A stretch of DNA of 40,014 nt from an uncultured Gammaproteobacteria bacterium (GTDB taxonomy: Bacteria; Pseudomonadota; Gammaproteobacteria; GCA-001735895), in the NCBI GenBank assembly GCA_947259305.1, contig CAMYML010000004.1, forward strand, positions 1-40,014, given 5' to 3'. This document shows positions 590 through 15,672 of this stretch, in pieces (the stretch's first letter is position 1; every line of letters starts with the position of its first letter). The notes beneath the pieces were generated by a model. The model made no database searches. It was given only the letters and a program-made list of their open reading frames with translations, and was not told the origin of the DNA. Both the position numbers and the translations under genes were made by a program.

Positions 590-3500
590 TTATTGCTGGC
601 TTAGTTTGCGGAAGTAGTCGGCGACCATTTCCTCGTAGTCGTCGGGTAACTCGGCCGGCTCGGATATCAACAGTTCGGGATATTCGGCTTTATCGAACTT
701 GTTGCGTAACTTGTACTCCAGCTCCATCAGAGCGCGCAGGGCGAGTTCGTACTGCGCGCTGGAAGCAGGGATAGCCGCGCCGTTTTGCCCGCGCGTTAAA
801 GCTTCAATCTGCGCGAGCACGGGATCGACATCGCCCGCCGAGGCGCCCTGGTCGAGCAAACCCCCGCCGAGTTCGCGCGTGCGTTCGGCGATGTCGTTCA
901 GTTCGTCCTGACCGATCGGCCGGTCGTCGAAATCCGTTCGACCCGCAGTGTCGGCGTCCACGCCCGGGCCGTTAGTGGTCCCCGCGGCGCGTTGCCGCAG
1001 GTAACGCAACTCTCGCGCCAGGTCGTGCAGTTGCTCGAGCGAGCGCCCCAGCCCCCGGGTGCCTTTTTCGCCAACGTTCTCGAGGGCCGTTTCGATATGC
1101 TCGCGGATCTCGCCGATGCCCTTCTGGATTACGGTTTCGTTGTCGAGCGCATGCTCGCGATCGTCCAGCAGCACCATTTGCCGGGTGCGACCGATGCGAT
1201 CGTGCAGGCGATACTCGCGCCCCGCCCGAATCGCCTGTTTTAACGCCTGACCTGACTCGGGCTGCTCTTCCTTCGCGGTTGTCGTCAGGCTGCTGAGTTC
1301 GCTCTCCAGGTCGGTCAGCGCTTCCGACAGCGCCTGCTTTTTTTGCCTGAGCCGTTCCAGCTGGGCTTCGAGCCGGCCGCCCCATTGGTCGTCCAGCGCC
1401 GACACTTCCTGCTTGATGGCAGCTTGTTTTTTCTCTACCAGTTCGGCGCGGCGCAGGCTGCGCTCGACCTTTTCGCTGAACTGCCGCGCCCGGCCCTGGT
1501 CCAGCAGGCGCCTGGCTTCACGCAGGTTTTCTGCGGCCTGGCGGGCCTGATCGACGCTGCCCGTACCGCCCGCCGTCGCGGACGACGCGGCGCGTCGCAT
1601 GGCTTGCGCCGCATTACGCATCTTGCTGATCGACTGCTGTAACTGCGGATTCGGCTGTGTGCGCGACAGCCGCTCCAGTTGTCGCGCCATCGCTTCCAGT
1701 TCTTCGGCCAGCGCGAGCTGCTTCTGGTTGGCGTTGTTGTTCTGCGCCTGACCCTGACGCCGCATCGCGCGTTCCACTTCCTGCTGCTGGCGCCTTGCCA
1801 GTTCGCGCAGTTTATCCAGGGTCTCGTCGATCAATTCGGCTGGCGGCGGTTGCTGCGCGCCGCGCTGCACGGTTTCATATTGATGCCGCAGTTTGTCCAT
1901 TTCCAGCTGGAACAGGTTGGCCAGGTCTTCGATGCCGGCGTTGCTGCCGGCCCCGCCGCCGCCGCGGTTCGCCAGCGAAACGTTGATATCCCTGAACTCC
2001 GCATCGGCTCTTTGCAGATGCTTCAGCGCAACCTGCGCGTCGGTTAGCGCCGGTTCGATCTCGGCTCGGTCCAGTTGTTGTTCCACCTCGCGCATGGCTT
2101 CGATTGCCAGCGGTAACTCCTCCAGGATGACCTTGTATCTTGCGTCGGCCTGGACAATCGCACGACTGCTGATGCGCCTTACAATCGCTTCCACGCGGTC
2201 GCGAATACGCCCTTGCGCCGTGACCAGCAGCTCCAGGTTTTCCTGGTAGGTCTGGTCACTGTAGCGGTTGCGGTCGCGAATCATTTTGAAGGTAGCCACG
2301 ACGAACTGCTTTTGCTGCTCCGACAGATGCCCCTGCTGTTGCCCGCCCTGGGCGCCGCCGCCACCGCCGCCACCCTGCTGCTCGGCGCGGCGGTAGTTTT
2401 TGCGGAACGGGCGCACCTGGTAAAAGAATATGTCGCTGGTAGCGGTTTTGGCCGCGTCGGCTGGCGCCCGGTCCGCGGCGTTGACGTAGTAGGAAATCAG
2501 GTCACCGGGACGCAGGCCGAGATCTTCGAGGTAGACGATGTGCTCGGCCTCGACCTGTTGACGGGCGCCTGGCTCATCCGCCGCCGGCATCAATTCGATG
2601 CGTTGCTCGGCTTCGCCATTGACCGACAGTACCAGCTCGAGGTTGGCAATGCCCTGATCGTCGGTGGCGCGCACTTTGAGCACCGGTTCTTCGATCATGC
2701 TGACCTTGATATCCCGCCCGGGGCTCGTAATCGATACGCTCGGAAATCGGTCGTCGAGCGCGCTGATGCGAAACTCGGCCGAAGCGTCGACCGGGATACC
2801 GCTCGCGCGCTGCAGCGTCACCTGGTAGGCGCTGTCCTGTTGCACCGTTATTTCACCAATCCAGGTCGAGTCATCCGCGCGCTGCAGGTCGATGCGCTCG
2901 CCATCGGCGAGCTGCAGTGCACCGCCTGGAATATCAATCGTCGGCTCGATCAGCACTTCGACGCGGGTGCCCCGCAGTGCCGTGATGTCGCCGGAACCCT
3001 GGCTGGTTTCGGGTGGCAGCATGGTATAAGCGGGAAAGTTGTAACGCAGGCCGATCGACTCGATCGCGGGGATATCGGCCACCGTGATGCGATGAGTCGG
3101 GGACTGCCGGCCCGCCCCGCTGACGTAGTAATCGGTGTCCTGCTTCAAATCGAAGACAAAGGACTCATAGCGGCCGCCCTCGTTGCTGGCAGCCATTGTC
3201 GTTTGCTGCCAGCTTTCACCTTCGTCGCGCGAGGTGAAAAGCAGCACGTCGGCGCCGTCGAATCCGTCAATCCGGGCGCTGATCAATTGATCGTCGCCGC
3301 GCGCAATTTCGATATCGCCGGGCGCAAGCTCGATGCGATAGGGAGAAACTTCACTCGCGCTGGCCCAGGCTTGCAGCAATGCCGGCGCGCCGCTGCGCAA
3401 AAACCCGGGCGGCCAGAGCATCAATCCGATAATAACGAACAGCGCAACCCCGAGCTTAGAGCCTGCCTGGCGGAGTTTTTGTCGTTCGACCCGGTCACCG

Positions 3501-3976
3501 TATTCAACCCGCGCACAGGCGTCGAGCGCTCGCTCGACCAGCTGTTCGACCAGTTGCGTCGATAAGTCACGCAGGCCCGTTCGCCGGGCGTCGACCGCGC
3601 TCAGGATGAGCGACTTCAAGTCTGGTTCGTGCTCTTCCAGGTAGAGCGCGACCTGGACGTCGTCGACCTTGCGGCGCAAGGGTTTGACACAGAACTGCAA
3701 GACCAGCGCAAGCAGGGCAAAAACGCCGACAAAGCGTAACGACCAGACCGCGGACGGGGCAAAATGCCACGCGTTTACCAGCCAGGCCAATATCAGGATC
3801 AACGCGGTCGCGAGCGCGAGCGTCCAAACCAGGCCGTTGACTAACAGGCGCAGCCGCCAGCGCCGTCGTATGCGCTCGATGATCGCGGACAGGGCGGGTC
3901 TGCCGTCGGCCTGGCGCCGGACCGGTGTCAGCAGGTCGAACAATCTGGCGCCGATATTGTGATGTGTCGTATCCAT
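590..3976 (-). CDS. DUF4175-like large membrane and coiled-coil protein
   Basis: The product has 1128 residues. Three hydrophobic segments lie near the N-terminus (about residues 44-68, 78-98 and 174-190), followed by a large domain that is probably periplasmic. A Gly/Gln-rich linker around residues 525-545 (GGGGGGGAQGGQQQ) leads into several hundred residues of highly charged, Gln/Arg/Glu-rich predicted coiled coil. This architecture matches DUF4175 proteins (TIGR02302-like), which occur beside MoxR/DUF58/vWA genes in proteobacteria. Their biochemical role is unknown. The gene starts 12 bp after the stop of the broken BatA-like gene and is the last gene of the operon. The ATG start has no strong Shine-Dalgarno sequence, so translational coupling is plausible. 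The frame is intact throughout. Confidence 0.85.
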   Translation of the reverse strand: MDTTHHNIGARLFDLLTPVRRQADGRPALSAIIERIRRRWRLRLLVNGLVWTLALATALILILAWLVNAWHFAPSAVWSLRFVGVFALLALVLQFCVKPLRRKVDDVQVALYLEEHEPDLKSLILSAVDARRTGLRDLSTQLVEQLVERALDACARVEYGDRVERQKLRQAGSKLGVALFVIIGLMLWPPGFLRSGAPALLQAWASASEVSPYRIELAPGDIEIARGDDQLISARIDGFDGADVLLFTSRDEGESWQQTTMAASNEGGRYESFVFDLKQDTDYYVSGAGRQSPTHRITVADIPAIESIGLRYNFPAYTMLPPETSQGSGDITALRGTRVEVLIEPTIDIPGGALQLADGERIDLQRADDSTWIGEITVQQDSAYQVTLQRASGIPVDASAEFRISALDDRFPSVSITSPGRDIKVSMIEEPVLKVRATDDQGIANLELVLSVNGEAEQRIELMPAADEPGARQQVEAEHIVYLEDLGLRPGDLISYYVNAADRAPADAAKTATSDIFFYQVRPFRKNYRRAEQQGGGGGGGAQGGQQQGHLSEQQKQFVVATFKMIRDRNRYSDQTYQENLELLVTAQGRIRDRVEAIVRRISSRAIVQADARYKVILEELPLAIEAMREVEQQLDRAEIEPALTDAQVALKHLQRADAEFRDINVSLANRGGGGAGSNAGIEDLANLFQLEMDKLRHQYETVQRGAQQPPPAELIDETLDKLRELARRQQQEVERAMRRQGQAQNNNANQKQLALAEELEAMARQLERLSRTQPNPQLQQSISKMRNAAQAMRRAASSATAGGTGSVDQARQAAENLREARRLLDQGRARQFSEKVERSLRRAELVEKKQAAIKQEVSALDDQWGGRLEAQLERLRQKKQALSEALTDLESELSSLTTTAKEEQPESGQALKQAIRAGREYRLHDRIGRTRQMVLLDDREHALDNETVIQKGIGEIREHIETALENVGEKGTRGLGRSLEQLHDLARELRYLRQRAAGTTNGPGVDADTAGRTDFDDRPIGQDELNDIAERTRELGGGLLDQGASAGDVDPVLAQIEALTRGQNGAAIPASSAQYELALRALMELEYKLRNKFDKAEYPELLISEPAELPDDYEEMVADYFRKLSQQ

Positions 3977-3988
3977 ATTTTTCGTCGG

Positions 3989-6033
3989 CTAGCCTGTTCC
4001 CCGGGTGCGGATGGATCGCCTGGCGCCGATCCAGTTTGCGGACAGGGCCTCGATCAGCGTCAACGCCAGCACCGCCAGCAGAATCGCGTAGGCCAGTTGC
4101 TGTTGCTGCTCATATTCACTGGCCTGTCGCCTGGTCAGGGCCGCACCCGTAACGGGAGGTTTCGCAGAAGCCCTAATTTCCTCCACAAATCGGTCGACGT
4201 CAAGCGTCTCCAGGTTTGTTTCCTGCGGATCGATGTTCGCCGCCAGGGTGATTTCCACCCCGCTCGGGGTCGCCTGATGGACCTGGTAGAACCCCGGCTC
4301 CGTCAACGCTAACAACGGGGATTGCCGATTGACCCGGATTTCCCTGGCCGACGGCGTTTCGATAATCAGCGGCCCGTCATTTGCGGCGGCGACGGTGGCG
4401 TCGGCGCCCGCAAGCGCACGCGCGTAGCGCATTACGTCGGTGATACTACCGATTTCGGATTGATTCGGATAGGCTTCGAAGGCCGTGAGATAGCGCAGGC
4501 TCTGGTGCAGAAAGGGTAGAAAAACCGGCTGTAGCGCGAGGTCGTTCCAATGCGTATCCAGCGTCGTAGTCAGCGCCAGCACGCGACCCTGGCCGACGCG
4601 CCGTTCCAGCAGCGCGACCGCGCCATCGCTGTAGCGGGCTACGACCCGGTCATCCGCCGCGGGTTGCAGTTCGCGATAATTGAAAATTCGCGCCAGCGAC
4701 AGGTCGATCGTATTGCGCGCGCCAAGACTGATGGCGAGCGGATGGTCGGCTTCGAAATCGGTTATGTTAAAGGCCGTGCCCCGTTTCGCATCGACCTTGC
4801 GACCCGGGCTGCCTGGCAGGTAAGGCGACGCCCAGTTTCGCTGCGTTGCCGTGCCGGTAGTGACCAGCAAGCCGCCGCCCGCGGCGGCGAATTTGGCCAG
4901 CGCCTCACCCAGCTCGCCACCGGGCAGCGAGACGTCATTCATGATGATTACCGCCCAGTTCTGCAGATCCTCCGCTTTCAATTCATCGATTGCTATGCGT
5001 TCGACCCGAAACACGGGGTTGCGCGATAGCCGCAGGGCGTTCTGCAGGTAAACGGCCTGGTTGCTGCGGGCTGCGGGCTCCTCGACGATTAACAGCGGCA
5101 GCTGTTGCCTGCTCGAGTAAACGAAGAAGCGCTGGTTATCCAGCGCCAGCGCATCGTCACCCAGGCTGACACGGCCGCGCAGTAAATCGTCGCTGACGCT
5201 CAGTCGATCGAAGCTTTCGGCAATCGCCGAGCGGGGTGCTAACAAGAGCTTGCGCCGGGCGAGCTCACGGCCGTCGAGCGTCAGCGTGACTTCCTGCTGC
5301 AGCGGGATGGTCGCGCGATTGGCCACGTCAACCGTGAGCGAAAACTCGTCGGCGCCGATGCGTGACGACGGTTCGATGACGACCCCGGTGATCGACGCAT
5401 TCGCAACCTCGGCCGACGCAGCCTGGTGGTACTGATTTCGGATCTATACGACACGCCGGAGCTCTTTTTGCGGCTGGCGTTGCTGCCCGCGAGCAGGCGC
5501 GCCGCCTGCTCGATCGCGGGCGGCAAGCGCGTTGCTTTAAACCCGGGTGTCTGGTCCTGGAGTACCGTGCGCAGGTTGGCGGCACGGCTGCTCAGGTCGC
5601 TGAGCAGCTCGGTCTCGTCATCGAATAATACGACAGCAATCCGGTCCTGCGCCGGTTTCTGATCGACCAGCCACAAGGCGATATCGAGCGCCTGTTGCCA
5701 ATGGTCGGCAATGCGCATGCTGTAGGATCGGTCGAGCACGATGACGCTGTCCTGGCGTCCCGGTTCCAGCCCCGTGGACCCGGTTGCAGAGCTGAAGAAC
5801 GGGCGCGCAAACGCGAGCACGATGAGCAGCAGCAGCAGGCAGCGCAATAGCAGCAGCAACCAGTGCCTGATCTCGAGGCGGCGTTTTTCGCGCTGCGGGA
5901 TTCGTTTTAAAAACATCAACGACGGGAAGCGGGCACCCTGGCTGTGCTGCTTTTGCACCAGGTGGATCAACACCGGCAGGGCCAGTAACAGCAGGCCGAC
6001 CAGATACAGCGGATTGATCCAGGACAGGCCCAT
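3989..6033 (-). pseudogene. BatA-like vWA membrane protein, frame broken by an inverted 59-bp copy
   Basis: The N-terminal half reads from 6033 and the C-terminal half is a separate frame running from about 5443 down to 3989. The N-terminal half has the BatA-type N-terminus (membrane helix at about residues 8-25, IHLVQKQ motif, second helix at 58-78) and a vWA MIDAS motif DRSYS (101-105). The C-terminal half has a GATase1-like domain and a final membrane helix. Together they would form one normal protein of about 680 residues. The break lies where a vWA domain should have its 'VxxISD' strand. The coding sequence there is replaced by 5404-5462, a perfect reverse complement of 6353-6411 in the neighbouring DUF58 gene. 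Read in the gene's direction it gives nonsense residues and then a shifted frame that stops at 5281. The start codon overlaps the DUF58 stop (TGATG). The gene is either genuinely inactivated or the sequence is a chimera; the sequence alone cannot decide. Confidence 0.85.
5404..5462 (+). repeat. 59-bp inverted copy, arm inside the BatA-like gene
   Basis: Base-by-base comparison shows that 5404-5462 equals the reverse complement of 6353-6411 with no mismatch, and that identity stops sharply at both ends. On the plus strand it encodes RRSLVVLISDLYDTPE, which makes sense only in the DUF58 gene. Confidence 0.95.
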
Positions 6034-6956
6034 CAGCGGGTCCGGTTCTGGCGTTCCCGGTCGGACAGGTAACGGAACAGGATATTATCCAGCGGTTGGG
6101 AAATGTCAGCGAAGATATAGTCGATCTGGTTGGCGCCAAAGCGCCGCTCGAGCTCAGCCCGGTGATCCTGGATCAGCTGTCGGTAGCGGTCCTGAAACTG
6201 CTCGGCTGCGAGCGGCAGGTTAACCCCTGATTCCAGGTCTTCCACGCTGGAGACGTCGCCCAGGTCCAGGCTCAGTTCCTGCGGATCCAGCAAATGGAAC
6301 ACGATCAGGTCGTTGCCGCGGTAGCGCAGTTGATTGATCGCACCGAGCAGGCGCTCCGGCGTGTCGTATAGATCCGAAATCAGTACCACCAGGCTGCGTC
6401 GGCCGAGGTTGAGGGCGATTTTCGCCAGCGGTTCGCGGTAATTGCTGGCGCCGCCGGCGGTGAGTCGATCGAGGGCAAGCAGCACCGTGTTGAAATGCCT
6501 GATCGACGGTGGGATCACTTCGACGATCTCGTTGTCGAAGGTGATCAGGCCGATACGATCGCGCTGGCGCCGGGACAGGTAGGCCAGGCTCGCGGCGAGA
6601 AATTTTGCGTATTCGAGTTTGGTCACCGCGCCGCTGCCGAAGTCCATGGAGCGGGAGACGTCGAGCAGCAGGTGCAGGTTGGCATTGGTATCGGCCTCGA
6701 ATTCCTTGACATAGAGGCGGTCGGTGCGCGCGAACAGCCGCCAGTCGATGCGGCGCACGTCATCGCCGGGCATGTAGGCGCGATGTTCGGCGAAATCCAC
6801 CGACATGCCGAGCATCGGCGAACGATGCAGACCGCTGATGAAGCCGTCCACCACGCCGCGCGCGACCAGTTCCAGGTTGTCGATACGGGTCAGTACTTCC
6901 GGATCGATGAAGCGCTGTCCGGGTAGCTGGGCCTGTGCCTGTCTGTTTCTCGGCAT
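6033..6956 (-). CDS. DUF58 protein (vWA-like partner of MoxR)
   Basis: The 307-residue protein carries the DUF58 signature GDDVRRIDWRLFARTDR (about 64-80). It is followed by a vWA-type MIDAS motif DVSRS (99-103) and a second vWA strand VVLISDLYDTPE near residue 190. DUF58 proteins are almost always encoded next to MoxR ATPases and are thought to be their soluble or membrane-associated partners. The gene follows MoxR by 11 bp, and its stop overlaps the BatA-like start by one base (TGATG), so the three genes are probably translationally coupled. The frame is intact. Its bases 6353-6411 are duplicated in inverted orientation in the next gene. Confidence 0.93.
   Translation of the reverse strand: MPRNRQAQAQLPGQRFIDPEVLTRIDNLELVARGVVDGFISGLHRSPMLGMSVDFAEHRAYMPGDDVRRIDWRLFARTDRLYVKEFEADTNANLHLLLDVSRSMDFGSGAVTKLEYAKFLAASLAYLSRRQRDRIGLITFDNEIVEVIPPSIRHFNTVLLALDRLTAGGASNYREPLAKIALNLGRRSLVVLISDLYDTPERLLGAINQLRYRGNDLIVFHLLDPQELSLDLGDVSSVEDLESGVNLPLAAEQFQDRYRQLIQDHRAELERRFGANQIDYIFADISQPLDNILFRYLSDRERQNRTR
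6353..6411 (-). repeat. 59-bp inverted copy, source arm inside the DUF58 gene
   Basis: This segment encodes residues of about 182-202 of the intact DUF58 protein in its natural frame, so it is the parental copy. The second copy at 5404-5462 lies about 890 bp away in the opposite orientation. Confidence 0.95.
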
Positions 6957-6967
6957 GCTGCTGCCCG

Positions 6968-8005
6968 CTACATGCCCGAGCTCGGTAACGGCACCGCGTC
7001 GAGCAGGCGATCGATGAGCTCGTCGGAAGTGATTTTTTCCGATTCGGCGTGAAAGTTTCGCAACACCCGATGCCTGAGCACGGGTTTGGCGAGCTGTACG
7101 ATATCGTCGAAATCGACATGGTAGCGACCATCGAGCAGGGCCCGCGCCTTGCCGCCGAGCACCAGGTACTGCGCGGCGCGGGTGCTGGCGCCGTAGTCCA
7201 CCCAGTCGCGCACGAAATCGAGCGCGTCAGCGCTGCCCGGGCGACTGCAGCGCACCAGGTCCAGCGCGTATTGCGAAACCGGTTTCGAGACCGGTACCCT
7301 GCGCACCAGTTTCTGAAAAGCGCGAATCTCCCCGCCGCTCATCGCGTATTCGAACGCAATTTCGCGCAGCGAGGTCGTCTGGCGCACCACTTCGAGTTCA
7401 TCCTCCGCCGACAGGTAGTCGATAATAATTTCGAACATGAAGCGATCCAGCTGCGCTTCGGGCAACGGATAGGTGCCCTCCAGTTCGATCGGGTTTTGCG
7501 TGGCGAACACGAAAAATGGCTCTTCCAGCTCGTAGGTCTTGCCCTGCACGGTGACGCGGTGCTCCTGCATCGCTTCGAGCAGCGCGGATTGCGTCTTCGG
7601 TGGCGTCCGGTTGATCTCGTCGGCGAGCACGATGTTGGCGAAAATGGGGCCGGGCAGGAAGTTGAGTTCGCGTTTACCGGTGTCGGGATTTTCCTGCACC
7701 AGGTCGGTGCCGGTGATATCCGACGGCATCAGGTCCGGCGTGAACTGGATGCGTGAAAACCTGAGATCCAGCACCTGGGCGATGGAGTGAATCAACAGCG
7801 TCTTGGCGAGGCCGGGTACGCCGACGATCAGGCTATTACCGCCGGCCAGGATGGTCAGCATGACCTGCTCCACCACGGCGTCCTGGCCGACGATCAGTTT
7901 GCCCAGTTCGCCGCGCAGGCGCGCGTAACGCTCGATCAAATCCTCGGCGAGCCCGATATCGTCGGCGGCCTGCAGGGATTCTGTCTGTTCAGTTTGCTTA
8001 TCCAT
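6968..8005 (-). CDS. MoxR-family AAA+ ATPase
   Basis: The 345-residue protein has the MoxR form of Walker A, GVPGLAKT (62-69), a Walker B of the form LADEINR (127-133) followed by the family stretch TPPKTQSALLEAMQE, and a sensor region FATQNP (167-172) before LPEAQLDRF. MoxR ATPases act as chaperones that remodel or activate vWA-domain partners. The next genes, DUF58 and BatA-like, are the expected partners. The ATG at 8005 is preceded by AAGAGG at good Shine-Dalgarno spacing. A 72-bp gap separates it from the TPR peptidase gene upstream, which is still short enough for one transcript. Confidence 0.95.
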   Translation of the reverse strand: MDKQTEQTESLQAADDIGLAEDLIERYARLRGELGKLIVGQDAVVEQVMLTILAGGNSLIVGVPGLAKTLLIHSIAQVLDLRFSRIQFTPDLMPSDITGTDLVQENPDTGKRELNFLPGPIFANIVLADEINRTPPKTQSALLEAMQEHRVTVQGKTYELEEPFFVFATQNPIELEGTYPLPEAQLDRFMFEIIIDYLSAEDELEVVRQTTSLREIAFEYAMSGGEIRAFQKLVRRVPVSKPVSQYALDLVRCSRPGSADALDFVRDWVDYGASTRAAQYLVLGGKARALLDGRYHVDFDDIVQLAKPVLRHRVLRNFHAESEKITSDELIDRLLDAVPLPSSGM

Positions 8006-10624: not shown

Positions 10625-11599
10625 CTAACCTCCCTGTGCCCTGATTTCCCGGCTCAGCAGGGCGAGATCGACCAGTAATCCTTCGAGCCGGGTGTAGTAG
10701 TCGACCCGTGGCAGGCTTTCACGCTGCCGCTTTAGCTCGCTGATCGACTGCTCGAGATCCTGTTTGCGTCGCATCCTCTCGACTAATTGCGCGGATGCGC
10801 CAAGCTCCAGGGACGGCGGCTGCTGCAGGTAAACGCGGTTTGCCAGGGCGCCGTCAGGCTCGAACTCGCCTGGCGCCAGGCTGCCTTCGCCATCGCCGTT
10901 ATCGTCCAGCAGGGCGTGCTCGGTCAGCAGCTGTTTTTCATTGTCGAAGGCGCGCCGGGTCTCGCGGCGCGCGAAGGCGAAGGCTTCCAGCATCGATACC
11001 CGCTCGTCCTTGTCCGTGTCCGCGCCGGATTCGGCAAAGGCGGCAACGAAATAATCGCCGAAGAGGGTTGCGTGGTACTCGCGGCCGCTCGATGTCGCGG
11101 TAATGACGACCCGGTTATGCGCGGAGAGCGCCTTGATGAACGGGCCGCTGGCGGAGGCCGTGTTGACGATGACGACCAGCTGGTTTGCCAGCCCGTCCAG
11201 CGCCGCGGCGAGTTCCGTGGCGGAGATGTCGGGGCCTGGCAGGTTGAAGGCCGCGTCGTCGCCGCGGGGATTACCGTGGCCAATCAGGACCACGAAAACG
11301 CGGTCGTCGACCTGCGCCCTGGCGCCGATCTCCCGCAGCGCCTGCAGGATCGTCGGCTTGTCCGAGATCCGGTGTTGCGTGGGGCTATCCGGCATCGGGG
11401 TCTCGGTTAGCAAGATGATATTGTTTTTATCGACGCCGACCTCGATGGCAGATTCATACAGGCGCGTCGATCTGTCTGCAAAAAGCTCGCGATAGTCGTC
11501 GATCCCGCCGATCCCGCCGATAATCAGCAGGTAGTTTTGGGTCGCCTGCGCGCACGGCGTCGCGCACAGCAAGAGCAGCAGGATAGTGCGTAATTTCAT
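10625..11599 (-). CDS. secreted caspase-fold (peptidase C13-like) protein lacking the catalytic Cys
   Basis: I chose the ATG at 11599. It gives a signal peptide (KLRTILLLLLCATPCAQA), overlaps the upstream stop as ATGA, and has GGAG upstream; the frame itself extends to 11680 without a better start. The 324-residue product has the alternating strand/helix pattern of the caspase/legumain fold. The catalytic His motif is LIGHGN (His108). The next strand is VVIVNTASASGPF, where active relatives have (D/N)AC(x)SG. The Cys position is therefore Ser149. DTDKDERVSMLEAF near residue 194 is the calcium-loop-like segment common in bacterial caspase-like proteins, and another Asp-rich stretch DDNGDGEG follows. 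It may be a pseudopeptidase, a Ser variant or a binding scaffold. A hydrophilic coiled C-terminus closes the protein. Confidence 0.82.
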   Translation of the reverse strand: MKLRTILLLLLCATPCAQATQNYLLIIGGIGGIDDYRELFADRSTRLYESAIEVGVDKNNIILLTETPMPDSPTQHRISDKPTILQALREIGARAQVDDRVFVVLIGHGNPRGDDAAFNLPGPDISATELAAALDGLANQLVVIVNTASASGPFIKALSAHNRVVITATSSGREYHATLFGDYFVAAFAESGADTDKDERVSMLEAFAFARRETRRAFDNEKQLLTEHALLDDNGDGEGSLAPGEFEPDGALANRVYLQQPPSLELGASAQLVERMRRKQDLEQSISELKRQRESLPRVDYYTRLEGLLVDLALLSREIRAQGG

Positions 11600-13860
11600 G
11601 CCAGGCTCCGCCAGCGCCGGTATCCCCACTCCGCGCACAACAGGGCGACGAGCAACAGAAACAGGATCGGCATATCCCATAGCTCGAGGCGCAGCAGCCT
11701 GCGCGACCCACGCGAATTGCTATCCAGGGCAGCGACCAGCTGGTCCACCTCTTGCGCTCTGAAAAAGCTGCCGCTGGATTCGTCCGCGATCCGGCGCAAT
11801 AGTTTTTCGTTCATCTCCGAAGCAAAGTATTCATCACCTGCACGGGTTACCAGGAAACGGGTTTCGCCGCTGCGGGTCACTTGCCCGCTTGCATCGAGTT
11901 CGACCTGAGCCAGGTAATCCCCGGGTTCTGCAACCGCTAAATTCCCTTCGTAGACGCCTGGCAGGGAAGGGTGGGGTTGCAGGGGTATCGCCTGTTCGCT
12001 GCCGTCCAGCGCGGTCAGCACCGCACGCACCTGCGCCTCGCGCTGCGCGCTAAAATCAGCTTTCAATACTTCGCTGCGTAGTTTGATCACACCCCCGACA
12101 TGGATTTTCTGGGCCGACAGTTCCAGGTTCAAACGCCGCGGCACGCTTTCGACCAGCCAGCGCAGCAGTTGCCGCCACAACAGTTCATGGGTCTGATCTT
12201 CGAGGTCGATCTCGTGATGCATTTGCCACAACCAGGAATTCTGTACCGGGAACGCGACGACCTTGCCGCGGCCGTAGCGATGCCAGGCCATGGCCACGTA
12301 GGGGTCGTCCCGGTCGTTTGCCGGGCTGCTTAACAGCAGCGTCGCGCCGGGTTTTATTCGCCGGATCGGATTGACCATGGTCAACGGCGGCAGGGTCAGC
12401 CAGCGGGCGATCGATTTTTCGCTGCTGTCATCGAGTATCAGGGCCGGGTGGACCCAGGCTGCGGCGGTTGGCTGAATCTTGATCCGACGGTTGAATTCGG
12501 GTTGGGCCCGATCCGGCATGATCACCGGCGATATGCCGTGCAGCACGGAATCGCGATACCCCCCCTCGGTGAAAGCGTGACGGCCGCCCAGCATCAGCAG
12601 GCCGCCCCCGCGCTCGCTGACAAACTCGACGATCATGTCCTGTTGCTCGCGACTCAGTAATGAATTTTCGACACTGCCCAGTATGATGGCGTCGTAGGCA
12701 AATAGTTCGTCGCGGGTGATCGGAAAGCCGTTACGCAGCTCTTCCGAGGATTCGATACCGACCCGGTAATATTTCGCGTCGGCGGTTCTGATCAAACCCG
12801 TGACAGCCAGGTTCTCGTCATCGGCCACCGCGCGCCGGATGAACTTCAACTCGAAACGCGGCTCGCCTTCGTAATACAGGATTCGTATTTTACGGTTATC
12901 CACCGTCAGCATGGCCTGGCGGCTGTTGTTGGCGACGATTTGCTCGTCAGCCATGGCGCCGAGGTGAAACTCGAGTTGGCGCGGACCGGTATCTTCGATA
13001 GCGAGCGGTATCCGGATCGACTGCATCCCCGGTTTGAGGCGGAGTTGCTGCTTGTGCAGGATTCGGCTGTTGTCCTCGATCAGCAATTCAACCGGCAAGC
13101 CGTCGTAACCCTGCTGCTTTATCGTAACATCCGCCATCACCCGGCTGCCGTTCAGTACTTCGTCGGGCAGCCTGATCTGGCTGATTTCGATATCGCGCGC
13201 GTAGCGGCTCTCGCCCAGGCCGATGCTGTATACTGGAATCCGCGCCGACCTCAGGGATAACAGCAGCTTATCCAGCGGCTCGGCCGGCTGCAGGGCGCCG
13301 TCGCTGATCACCACCAGGCCGGCCAGCGGTTCACCCTGCAGGGTCGCCTGTGCGAAGCTTAGCGCCTGGATTAAATCGCTGTCGCCGTCGCTAAAATCGA
13401 GTGCGTCGATGTCGGCGATCGCTTCTGTTGCGGCGCCGAATTTAAACAGGCGCAGGTCGAAGCTCTGCTGTAGCGCGCGCAGCAGGTTGCCGGATTCGGC
13501 ATCGAGTTGCTGCCTGATAAAATCGCCGCGCGTGCCCAGCACCGGGTCCGCCAATCCCATGCTGATCGAATTATCGAGCAAAACGCCGACCACGCCGGGT
13601 TGCGGCATCTGCGCCGTGACTTCGAGCAGCGGCCGCGACAGACTGAAGATAATCACTGCAAGGGCCAGGCCGCGTAGCAACGCGATTATCATCCGATCCC
13701 CGCCGCGCGTGCGCCCCTGCAGTTTGAAGTAACCCAGCACTATGAAGGCGAGCGGAGCGATTACCAGTGGCAGTAGCGCCAGCTGCCACCAGGACAGGAG
13801 CGATACGAACCTGCCCTCGGCAAAATACTCGGCGGGGAATTTGAACAGGAATTCGAACAT
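11596..13860 (-). CDS. vWA and GATase1-like membrane protein
   Basis: The 754-residue protein has two N-terminal membrane helices (about 21-45 and 57-75) and a vWA domain with MIDAS motif DNSIS (96-100) followed by VVISDGA. A Rossmann-like GATase1-like region follows (GSVENSLLSREQQDMIVEF, then GGGLLMLGG). A C-terminal membrane helix ends at about residue 748 (PILFLLLVALLCAEWGY). The GATase1-like region lacks the nucleophilic Cys, as is usual in this family. Homologues sit beside MoxR/DUF58/BatA genes and are thought to be membrane-anchored vWA partners of the ATPase. The gene starts 25 bp after the DUF4159 gene and overlaps the caspase-like gene by 4 bp (ATGA). Confidence 0.9.
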   Translation of the reverse strand: MFEFLFKFPAEYFAEGRFVSLLSWWQLALLPLVIAPLAFIVLGYFKLQGRTRGGDRMIIALLRGLALAVIIFSLSRPLLEVTAQMPQPGVVGVLLDNSISMGLADPVLGTRGDFIRQQLDAESGNLLRALQQSFDLRLFKFGAATEAIADIDALDFSDGDSDLIQALSFAQATLQGEPLAGLVVISDGALQPAEPLDKLLLSLRSARIPVYSIGLGESRYARDIEISQIRLPDEVLNGSRVMADVTIKQQGYDGLPVELLIEDNSRILHKQQLRLKPGMQSIRIPLAIEDTGPRQLEFHLGAMADEQIVANNSRQAMLTVDNRKIRILYYEGEPRFELKFIRRAVADDENLAVTGLIRTADAKYYRVGIESSEELRNGFPITRDELFAYDAIILGSVENSLLSREQQDMIVEFVSERGGGLLMLGGRHAFTEGGYRDSVLHGISPVIMPDRAQPEFNRRIKIQPTAAAWVHPALILDDSSEKSIARWLTLPPLTMVNPIRRIKPGATLLLSSPANDRDDPYVAMAWHRYGRGKVVAFPVQNSWLWQMHHEIDLEDQTHELLWRQLLRWLVESVPRRLNLELSAQKIHVGGVIKLRSEVLKADFSAQREAQVRAVLTALDGSEQAIPLQPHPSLPGVYEGNLAVAEPGDYLAQVELDASGQVTRSGETRFLVTRAGDEYFASEMNEKLLRRIADESSGSFFRAQEVDQLVAALDSNSRGSRRLLRLELWDMPILFLLLVALLCAEWGYRRWRSLA

Positions 13861-14744: not shown

Positions 14745-15284
14745 CTACTCTGGGGTCAGCACGATATCGAAGCGTCCAAAGAGAATGGTTTCCCCCTTCA
14801 CGGTAGACTCTTCCAGAAATATCGCGGTGCCGCTTTCGTAGTGTTCGTCCAGGTTTGGATCGCCCTTGAACAAGATGCTGGTATCGAAGTACGCGAAACC
14901 ATCCTGGTATACCGAAAGATGAACGTGCTTGGCGCCCATATAATTACCGGGTACCACCGATCCGAATTGATAGCGCCCCCTGGCGTCGGTTTCCAGGGTA
15001 GTCCGATAGTTTTCGGTATAATCGCCTTCACCGTTTGCCTGCCGCAGGGATATGCGAACGCCGCCGAGCGGGGTGCCGTCGATACTGGTCACCCGACCGC
15101 GGATATTCATACGCTCGCCCGCATCCCCGGGTTGCCACAGGTCGATCAGTTTCGATTTATTTTCCGTGTCGGCTGCCGTGCCATCAGCCTGGGCAATGAT
15201 TATACCTGCAGCGAAAACAGCATTGGAAATCAGCAGGCCTGTAACCGCCAGGAATACCGCAAACCTAAATTCGTGTTTGAACAT
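14745..15284 (-). CDS. secreted intradiol ring-cleavage dioxygenase-like protein
   Basis: The 179-residue product has a signal peptide (about residues 1-26) and a beta-sandwich resembling the beta subunit of protocatechuate 3,4-dioxygenase. Matching landmarks are RQANGEGDY, GRYQFGSVVPGNY, KHVHLSV, ILFKGDP and the final RFDIVL. By this alignment all four non-haem iron ligands are present: Tyr89, Tyr115, His120 and His122. The protein is shorter than true subunits, and the loop between the second Tyr and the His pair is reduced. Related secreted proteins are known, but their substrates often are not. It is the first gene of the minus-strand cluster, and GAGG lies seven bases before the ATG. Whether it oxidises a catechol or serves as a structural domain cannot be told. 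Confidence 0.8.
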   Translation of the reverse strand: MFKHEFRFAVFLAVTGLLISNAVFAAGIIIAQADGTAADTENKSKLIDLWQPGDAGERMNIRGRVTSIDGTPLGGVRISLRQANGEGDYTENYRTTLETDARGRYQFGSVVPGNYMGAKHVHLSVYQDGFAYFDTSILFKGDPNLDEHYESGTAIFLEESTVKGETILFGRFDIVLTPE

Positions 15285-15351: not shown

Positions 15352-15672
15352 TGCAAGGCAATTTACGCCATTTGCGGGCAGTATTTCCCAGTCGATCGAG
15401 CAGTTACTGTTAGCGGTTTTTCCCAATTCGAGGCCCTGGCGCCGCGATCGAGCTGACTCGGCTATTGTTTATTGGGGCAGATTTACACCGCTTGTTTCGG
15501 CTGGTTTGCCAAACAATCGGTTCGGCGCCGGAATGGTCAGGGGCCTGTCGAAGGCCTTCCCGTCATTGGCGACGCTCGTGCGCTCCGCTTACGATCAGGC
15601 AATGCGGCACATGCATAACTACATGCAAGAGAGCGAGGAATTCCACCAGGACCTGGAGGGCATGGTAGAGAT

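Follow-up and report, generated by a model that had tools for sequence, protein, structure and literature searches.

The question raised by this locus is how a BatA-like gene, lying beside intact DUF58 and MoxR genes, came to carry in its middle an inverted copy of part of its neighbour. The window, that is, the whole stretch of DNA analysed (40,014 nt), is the entire contig C4 of the draft genome of an uncultured gammaproteobacterium. Within it, positions 5404-5462, read on the plus strand, are the exact reverse complement of positions 6353-6411, at 59 of 59 nucleotides and with 890 nt between the arms. This identity, pointed out in an initial annotation, was recovered both by a repeat search and by an independent script, and the pair is the sole exact inverted one of at least 25 nt in all 40,014 nt of the window. 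When the 4.29-Mb, 368-contig draft assembly was searched, the 59-nt segment was found in these two places only. The probability that a perfect match of 59 nt arises by chance within 40 kb is negligible, around 1e-27 by simple counting.

On the minus strand, an intact gene for a MoxR-family AAA+ ATPase (6968-8005; PF07726, 1.6e-61) shares the operon with the intact DUF58 gene (6033-6956, 307 aa; PF01882, 2.6e-45) and with the BatA-like gene; beyond them, on the same strand (590-3976), is the gene for a large protein whose match to DUF4175 lies below threshold. The BatA-like gene is found in two parts, an intact 5' part of 190 aa (5464-6033, minus strand; MGLSWIN...SNASRKK) and an orphaned 3' part (3989-5401, minus strand; from NASITGVV... 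to the stop), which is open and out of frame with the first. A profile search of the 5' part gave PF07584 (1.5e-21) and PF13519 (1.1e-10), both over the cut-off; this is the order found in BatA-like proteins of MoxR-vWA operons, a BatA N-terminal domain and then a vWA domain, here truncated at the insert. As had been claimed, the copy runs antisense to the gene and shifts its frame, in which 190 aa of true sequence are followed by frameshifted residues up to a stop at 250 aa. An intact middle section of the BatA-like gene was sought elsewhere in the assembly and was not found. As the truncated product would be deprived of its C-terminal half and of the transmembrane helix therein, the function of the BatA-like subunit has in all likelihood been lost.

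Positions 10625-11680, upstream of the MoxR operon, encode a product that reads by eye like a caspase-like peptidase, with the motifs GHGNPRGDDAAF and VIVNTASASGPF; it is flanked by a large TPR protein on one side and, on the other, by a membrane protein, also large, that has a GATase1-like domain.

The donor segment (6353-6411, minus strand) encodes a conserved vWA strand (...SLVVLISDLYDTPE) and is conserved in five relatives, in agreement with its earlier assignment to the DUF58 gene, whose protein is 90% identical in the closest relative. Since the DUF58 gene is intact, its donor segment is conserved in relatives and the BatA-like gene is the interrupted one, the copying went from DUF58 to BatA.

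The locus in related genomes

Comparison with close relatives, which the initial annotation had proposed as a check, showed an uninterrupted BatA-like gene in 11 of 11 relatives from the same genus, with open frames of 585-1007 aa. The two nearest to a 190-aa probe were G030 and G005, with protein identities of 83% and 78%, respectively. In both of them 105 nt lie between the SRK[K/R/Q] codon and the NAS codon, against 62 nt here, so that the suspected deletion of host sequence is real in this comparison: if one or two bases are taken to have been kept at either edge, 59 nt stand in place of around 103 nt of host sequence. The 'IxVISDF' strand of the vWA domain is part of what was lost, and the replaced stretch starts just before that strand in the relatives, which is the position that had been assigned to the copy. 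The same inverted segment in independent relatives, which according to the initial annotation would have marked an old and real event, is absent from the BatA-like gene in all 11 of the same-genus relatives; the event is therefore private to this genome, and either recent or artefactual.

The two halves of the gene gave dN/dS values of 0.15-0.32 against the relatives, compared with 0.17-0.29 for the intact pair G030/G005, and these values indicate that purifying selection is still undisturbed in both halves. As the copy is perfect and its flanks appear to be under purifying selection, the event would be recent, or else absent from the organism; a perfect copy and undecayed halves fit a recent event and an artefact equally.

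Outside the patch, both gene halves are collinear with those of the relatives. In the sense of the gene, the first join passes from ...CGCAAAAAGA into GCTCCGG..., and the second from ...GAGGTTG into CGAATGCG...; judged from the relatives, no base is common to join and donor flank in the first case, and one, at most two, in the second. A 30-mer across the junction was sought in viral contigs and gave no match.

Among 1,666 48-nt stretches sampled from the window, none is more stable than a GC-rich imperfect palindrome around 25 nt from the insert (5486-5522), whose counterparts in all the relatives are weaker; against shuffles of its own composition, its stability is modest and unremarkable (z = -1.63). 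One arm of this hairpin, CGAGCAGGC, also abuts the donor segment, at 6344-6352. That this 9-mer is found both at the edge of the donor and in the hairpin of the recipient (P around 0.009 per comparison, with four comparisons made) is suggestive; the 9-mer lies around 40 nt from the junction, and it is therefore not the primer of the join.

A second inverted patch in the same genome

A scan of this genome for inverted local copies, covering 2.16 of its 4.29 Mb, detected a single comparable pair, which lies on contig C52 (L174), where positions 15546-15647 are an inverted copy of positions 12884-12984, with 96% identity over 101 bp and an exact core of 57 nt. The donor lies in a NADH:flavin oxidoreductase-like gene (named from its translation). 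At the corresponding locus of G018, G021 and G030, an interval of around 0.9-1.2 kb separates a DksA-like gene from a histone-deacetylase-like gene, and in G021 this interval carries an EamA/DMT-like transporter gene (all three names from translations). Here, most of the length of the interval is gone and the inverted patch is in its place, with around 12 nt common to the recipient at one edge and around 8 nt at the other. Outside these homologous edges at least one substitution separates the patch from its donor; being already diverged, it is not an assembler's duplicate, and it follows that inverted templated replacement occurs in this lineage.

The other inverted matches in the 2.16 Mb are short or look like members of a dispersed palindromic repeat family. 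A repeat of this kind, REP-like and around 130 bp long, with CGATACGTCGGACCGCC units and GTCATTCCCGCGCAAGCGGGAATC arms, was seen on several contigs (L133 5364-5459, L148 2881-3067, L151 11932-12039, L184 1-164 and L171 4234-4363). In 0.45 Mb of other bins no inverted copy of at least 30 nt at 85% identity was found, and 0.40 Mb of G021 gave two weak ones only (85% and 90%), samples which are too small for rates to be compared.

Origin of the patch

That a real event took place seems to us somewhat probable, and an artefact of the assembly or of the library has a considerable probability, short of even. On balance, we lean towards a mutation that arose recently and by accident in the lineage of the cell, in the form of a short-patch inverted templated substitution. 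Its setting would be replication or repair near the strong hairpin in the BatA-like gene, where DNA synthesis would leave its template, copy 59 nt from the opposite-sense strand of the DUF58 gene, around 0.9 kb away, and then come back to the BatA template around 103 nt further on; as an alternative step, a short single strand from DUF58 may have annealed and been built in by two illegitimate joins. The outcome would be the 59-nt inverted patch in the place of around 103 nt, the frameshift and the probable loss of the subunit. An origin of the template-switch type, already put forward in the initial annotation, is thus the leading reading: a four-point switch or short-patch substitution is favoured because the two junctions leave the gene halves collinear, and an inverted templated origin is further supported by the second, independent and diverged patch on C52. 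The position of the site beside the hairpin also speaks for this reading. The nearly blunt joins of the window (0 and 1-2 nt), unlike those of the C52 patch, argue against an origin in vivo.

The event resembles several known processes. In the four-point template switch (Loytynoja and Goldman model; PMC7954356), the reverse complement of a nearby sequence likewise takes the place of a short stretch, with collinear flanks, a possible shrinkage in length and a hairpin near the switch point; a nearby reverse-complement donor (59/59, at 890 nt) and collinear flanks are both found here. In great apes the median length of such switches is 12 nt and the longest measures 128 nt (PMC7954356), to be compared with a patch of 59 nt and a donor 0.9 kb away in the window. 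Joins with microhomology are typical of a further process, short-patch double illegitimate recombination (SPDIR). As in the window, where 59 nt copied from elsewhere on the contig took the place of around 103 nt, SPDIR substitutes a short intragenomic segment for unrelated local sequence, inserting it by two illegitimate joins (Harms et al. 2016, PNAS 113:15066, as cited in PMC7192050); microhomology at both joins is seen in the C52 patch and is nearly absent from the joins of the window event (0 and 1-2 nt). Bacterial quasipalindrome-to-palindrome switching also yields a perfect inverted repeat by copying of the opposite strand, but in this case no pre-existing imperfect repeat is detectable in the relatives. 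Whether the patch is a textbook case of short inverted templated substitution or a product of the assembly, it is not a new kind of system.

The strongest competitor is an artefact of assembly, scaffolding or gap closing, in which the BatA-like gene would be intact in the organism, with around 103 nt lost beside the hairpin and bridged by a reverse-complemented 59-nt piece of DUF58. We consider it a serious possibility, clearly below even. The assembly is a draft in the style of short-read ones, in 368 contigs, and N gaps of 3-41 nt are left in it; one of eight gaps has an unmerged 51-nt duplicate flank, and the hairpin nearby could have depressed the coverage. The patch length would correspond to k-1 for k=60, or, in a different widely used assembler, to its step at k=59; a single 99-nt overlap of contig ends suggests a k of around 99/100, too little to identify the assembler. 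The lack of decay in the gene halves and the nearly blunt joins would also fit this explanation. However, it would require two chimeric joins separated by exactly 59 nt, at a site with no N run, and the diverged C52 patch is a sign that the lineage does undergo events of this sort. Since the 2.16 Mb contain no other exact inverted copy of such length in coding sequence, the patch does not look like an assembler habit either.

The gap with the duplicate flank is found in L176 (contig C63), at 14910-15039, where 28 N are bordered on both sides by the same 51 nt and the overlap was left unmerged.

Improbable, in our opinion, is a chimera of whole-genome amplification by phi29 MDA fixed into the assembly, which the initial annotation had also proposed. 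Chimeras of this kind join nearby segments in inverted orientation with an intervening deletion, 85% of them being inverted and mostly less than 10 kb apart, and among the inverted joins below 10 kb at least two complementary bases were present in 93.5% (Lasken and Stockwell 2007, PMC1855051). They are, however, single junctions, whereas the window has two, nearly blunt (0 and 1-2 nt), after which the template is regained; as both joins come back in register, a simple single-junction chimera is excluded. Moreover, inverted joins do not accumulate in the 2.16 Mb of the same assembly, and all the named same-genus records with the operon are metagenome bins.

Very unlikely is homologous gene conversion between the vWA genes, or the correction of a pre-existing imperfect inverted repeat. 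The replaced stretch does start at the structurally homologous vWA strand, but conversion would give a direct copy and not an inverted one, as had been argued before and as we agree. Besides, in neither orientation does the replaced stretch of the relatives resemble the donor more than shuffles do (p 0.15-0.76), which speaks against both processes. A functional invertible switch, in which the 59-nt repeats would flip the 890-nt segment between the arms, is hardly credible: a perfect inverted pair of such size could in principle recombine, but the arms lie inside two genes, one in conserved coding sequence and the other in a host gene that it has destroyed, neither orientation would restore an intact BatA-like frame, judging from the ORF map, and the relatives do not have the inverted pair.

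Should the event be real, it would be a clean and natural case, from a wild bacterium, of a single step in which a gene is broken by an inverted copy of the gene next to it. Should it be an artefact, the lesson would be that perfect inverted patches can be present in draft bins, where they mimic biology and produce false pseudogenes.

Ku in this genome, and RecJ in it and its relatives

No Ku gene was found in this genome, which disfavours end joining, and non-homologous end joining was rejected as an origin on this ground.

RecJ is a near-universal exonuclease, and its models (TIGR00644 and PF17768 RecJ_OB) had no match in this genome. In Acinetobacter baylyi, RecJ is reported to restrain the integration of short fragments via illegitimate recombination (Harms et al. 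2007, cited in PMC5312590 and PMC13344027). We hypothesize a link between the absence of RecJ and the two inverted patches, and the coincidence of both in one genome is a lead worth keeping. If the event in the window is real, the two patches offer a way to test whether lineages lacking RecJ suffer more events of this type. The broader proposal, that short inverted templated substitutions copied from nearby genes build up in a gammaproteobacterial clade which has lost RecJ, and become a visible force in gene loss, is speculative and in our view improbable; were it true, the event in the window and the replacement of the transporter on C52 would be two examples.

The models also had no match in nine other relatives with the BatA operon, 81-97% complete (G001, G003, G005, G006, G014, G016, G018, G020 and G021); the one exception was a weak partial match to TIGR00644 in G021. 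RecJ is present in six other genomes placed in the same genus, and in 16-17 of the 27 better genomes overall. This distribution suggests that RecJ was lost by the clade as a whole, more than that a single assembly happens to miss it.
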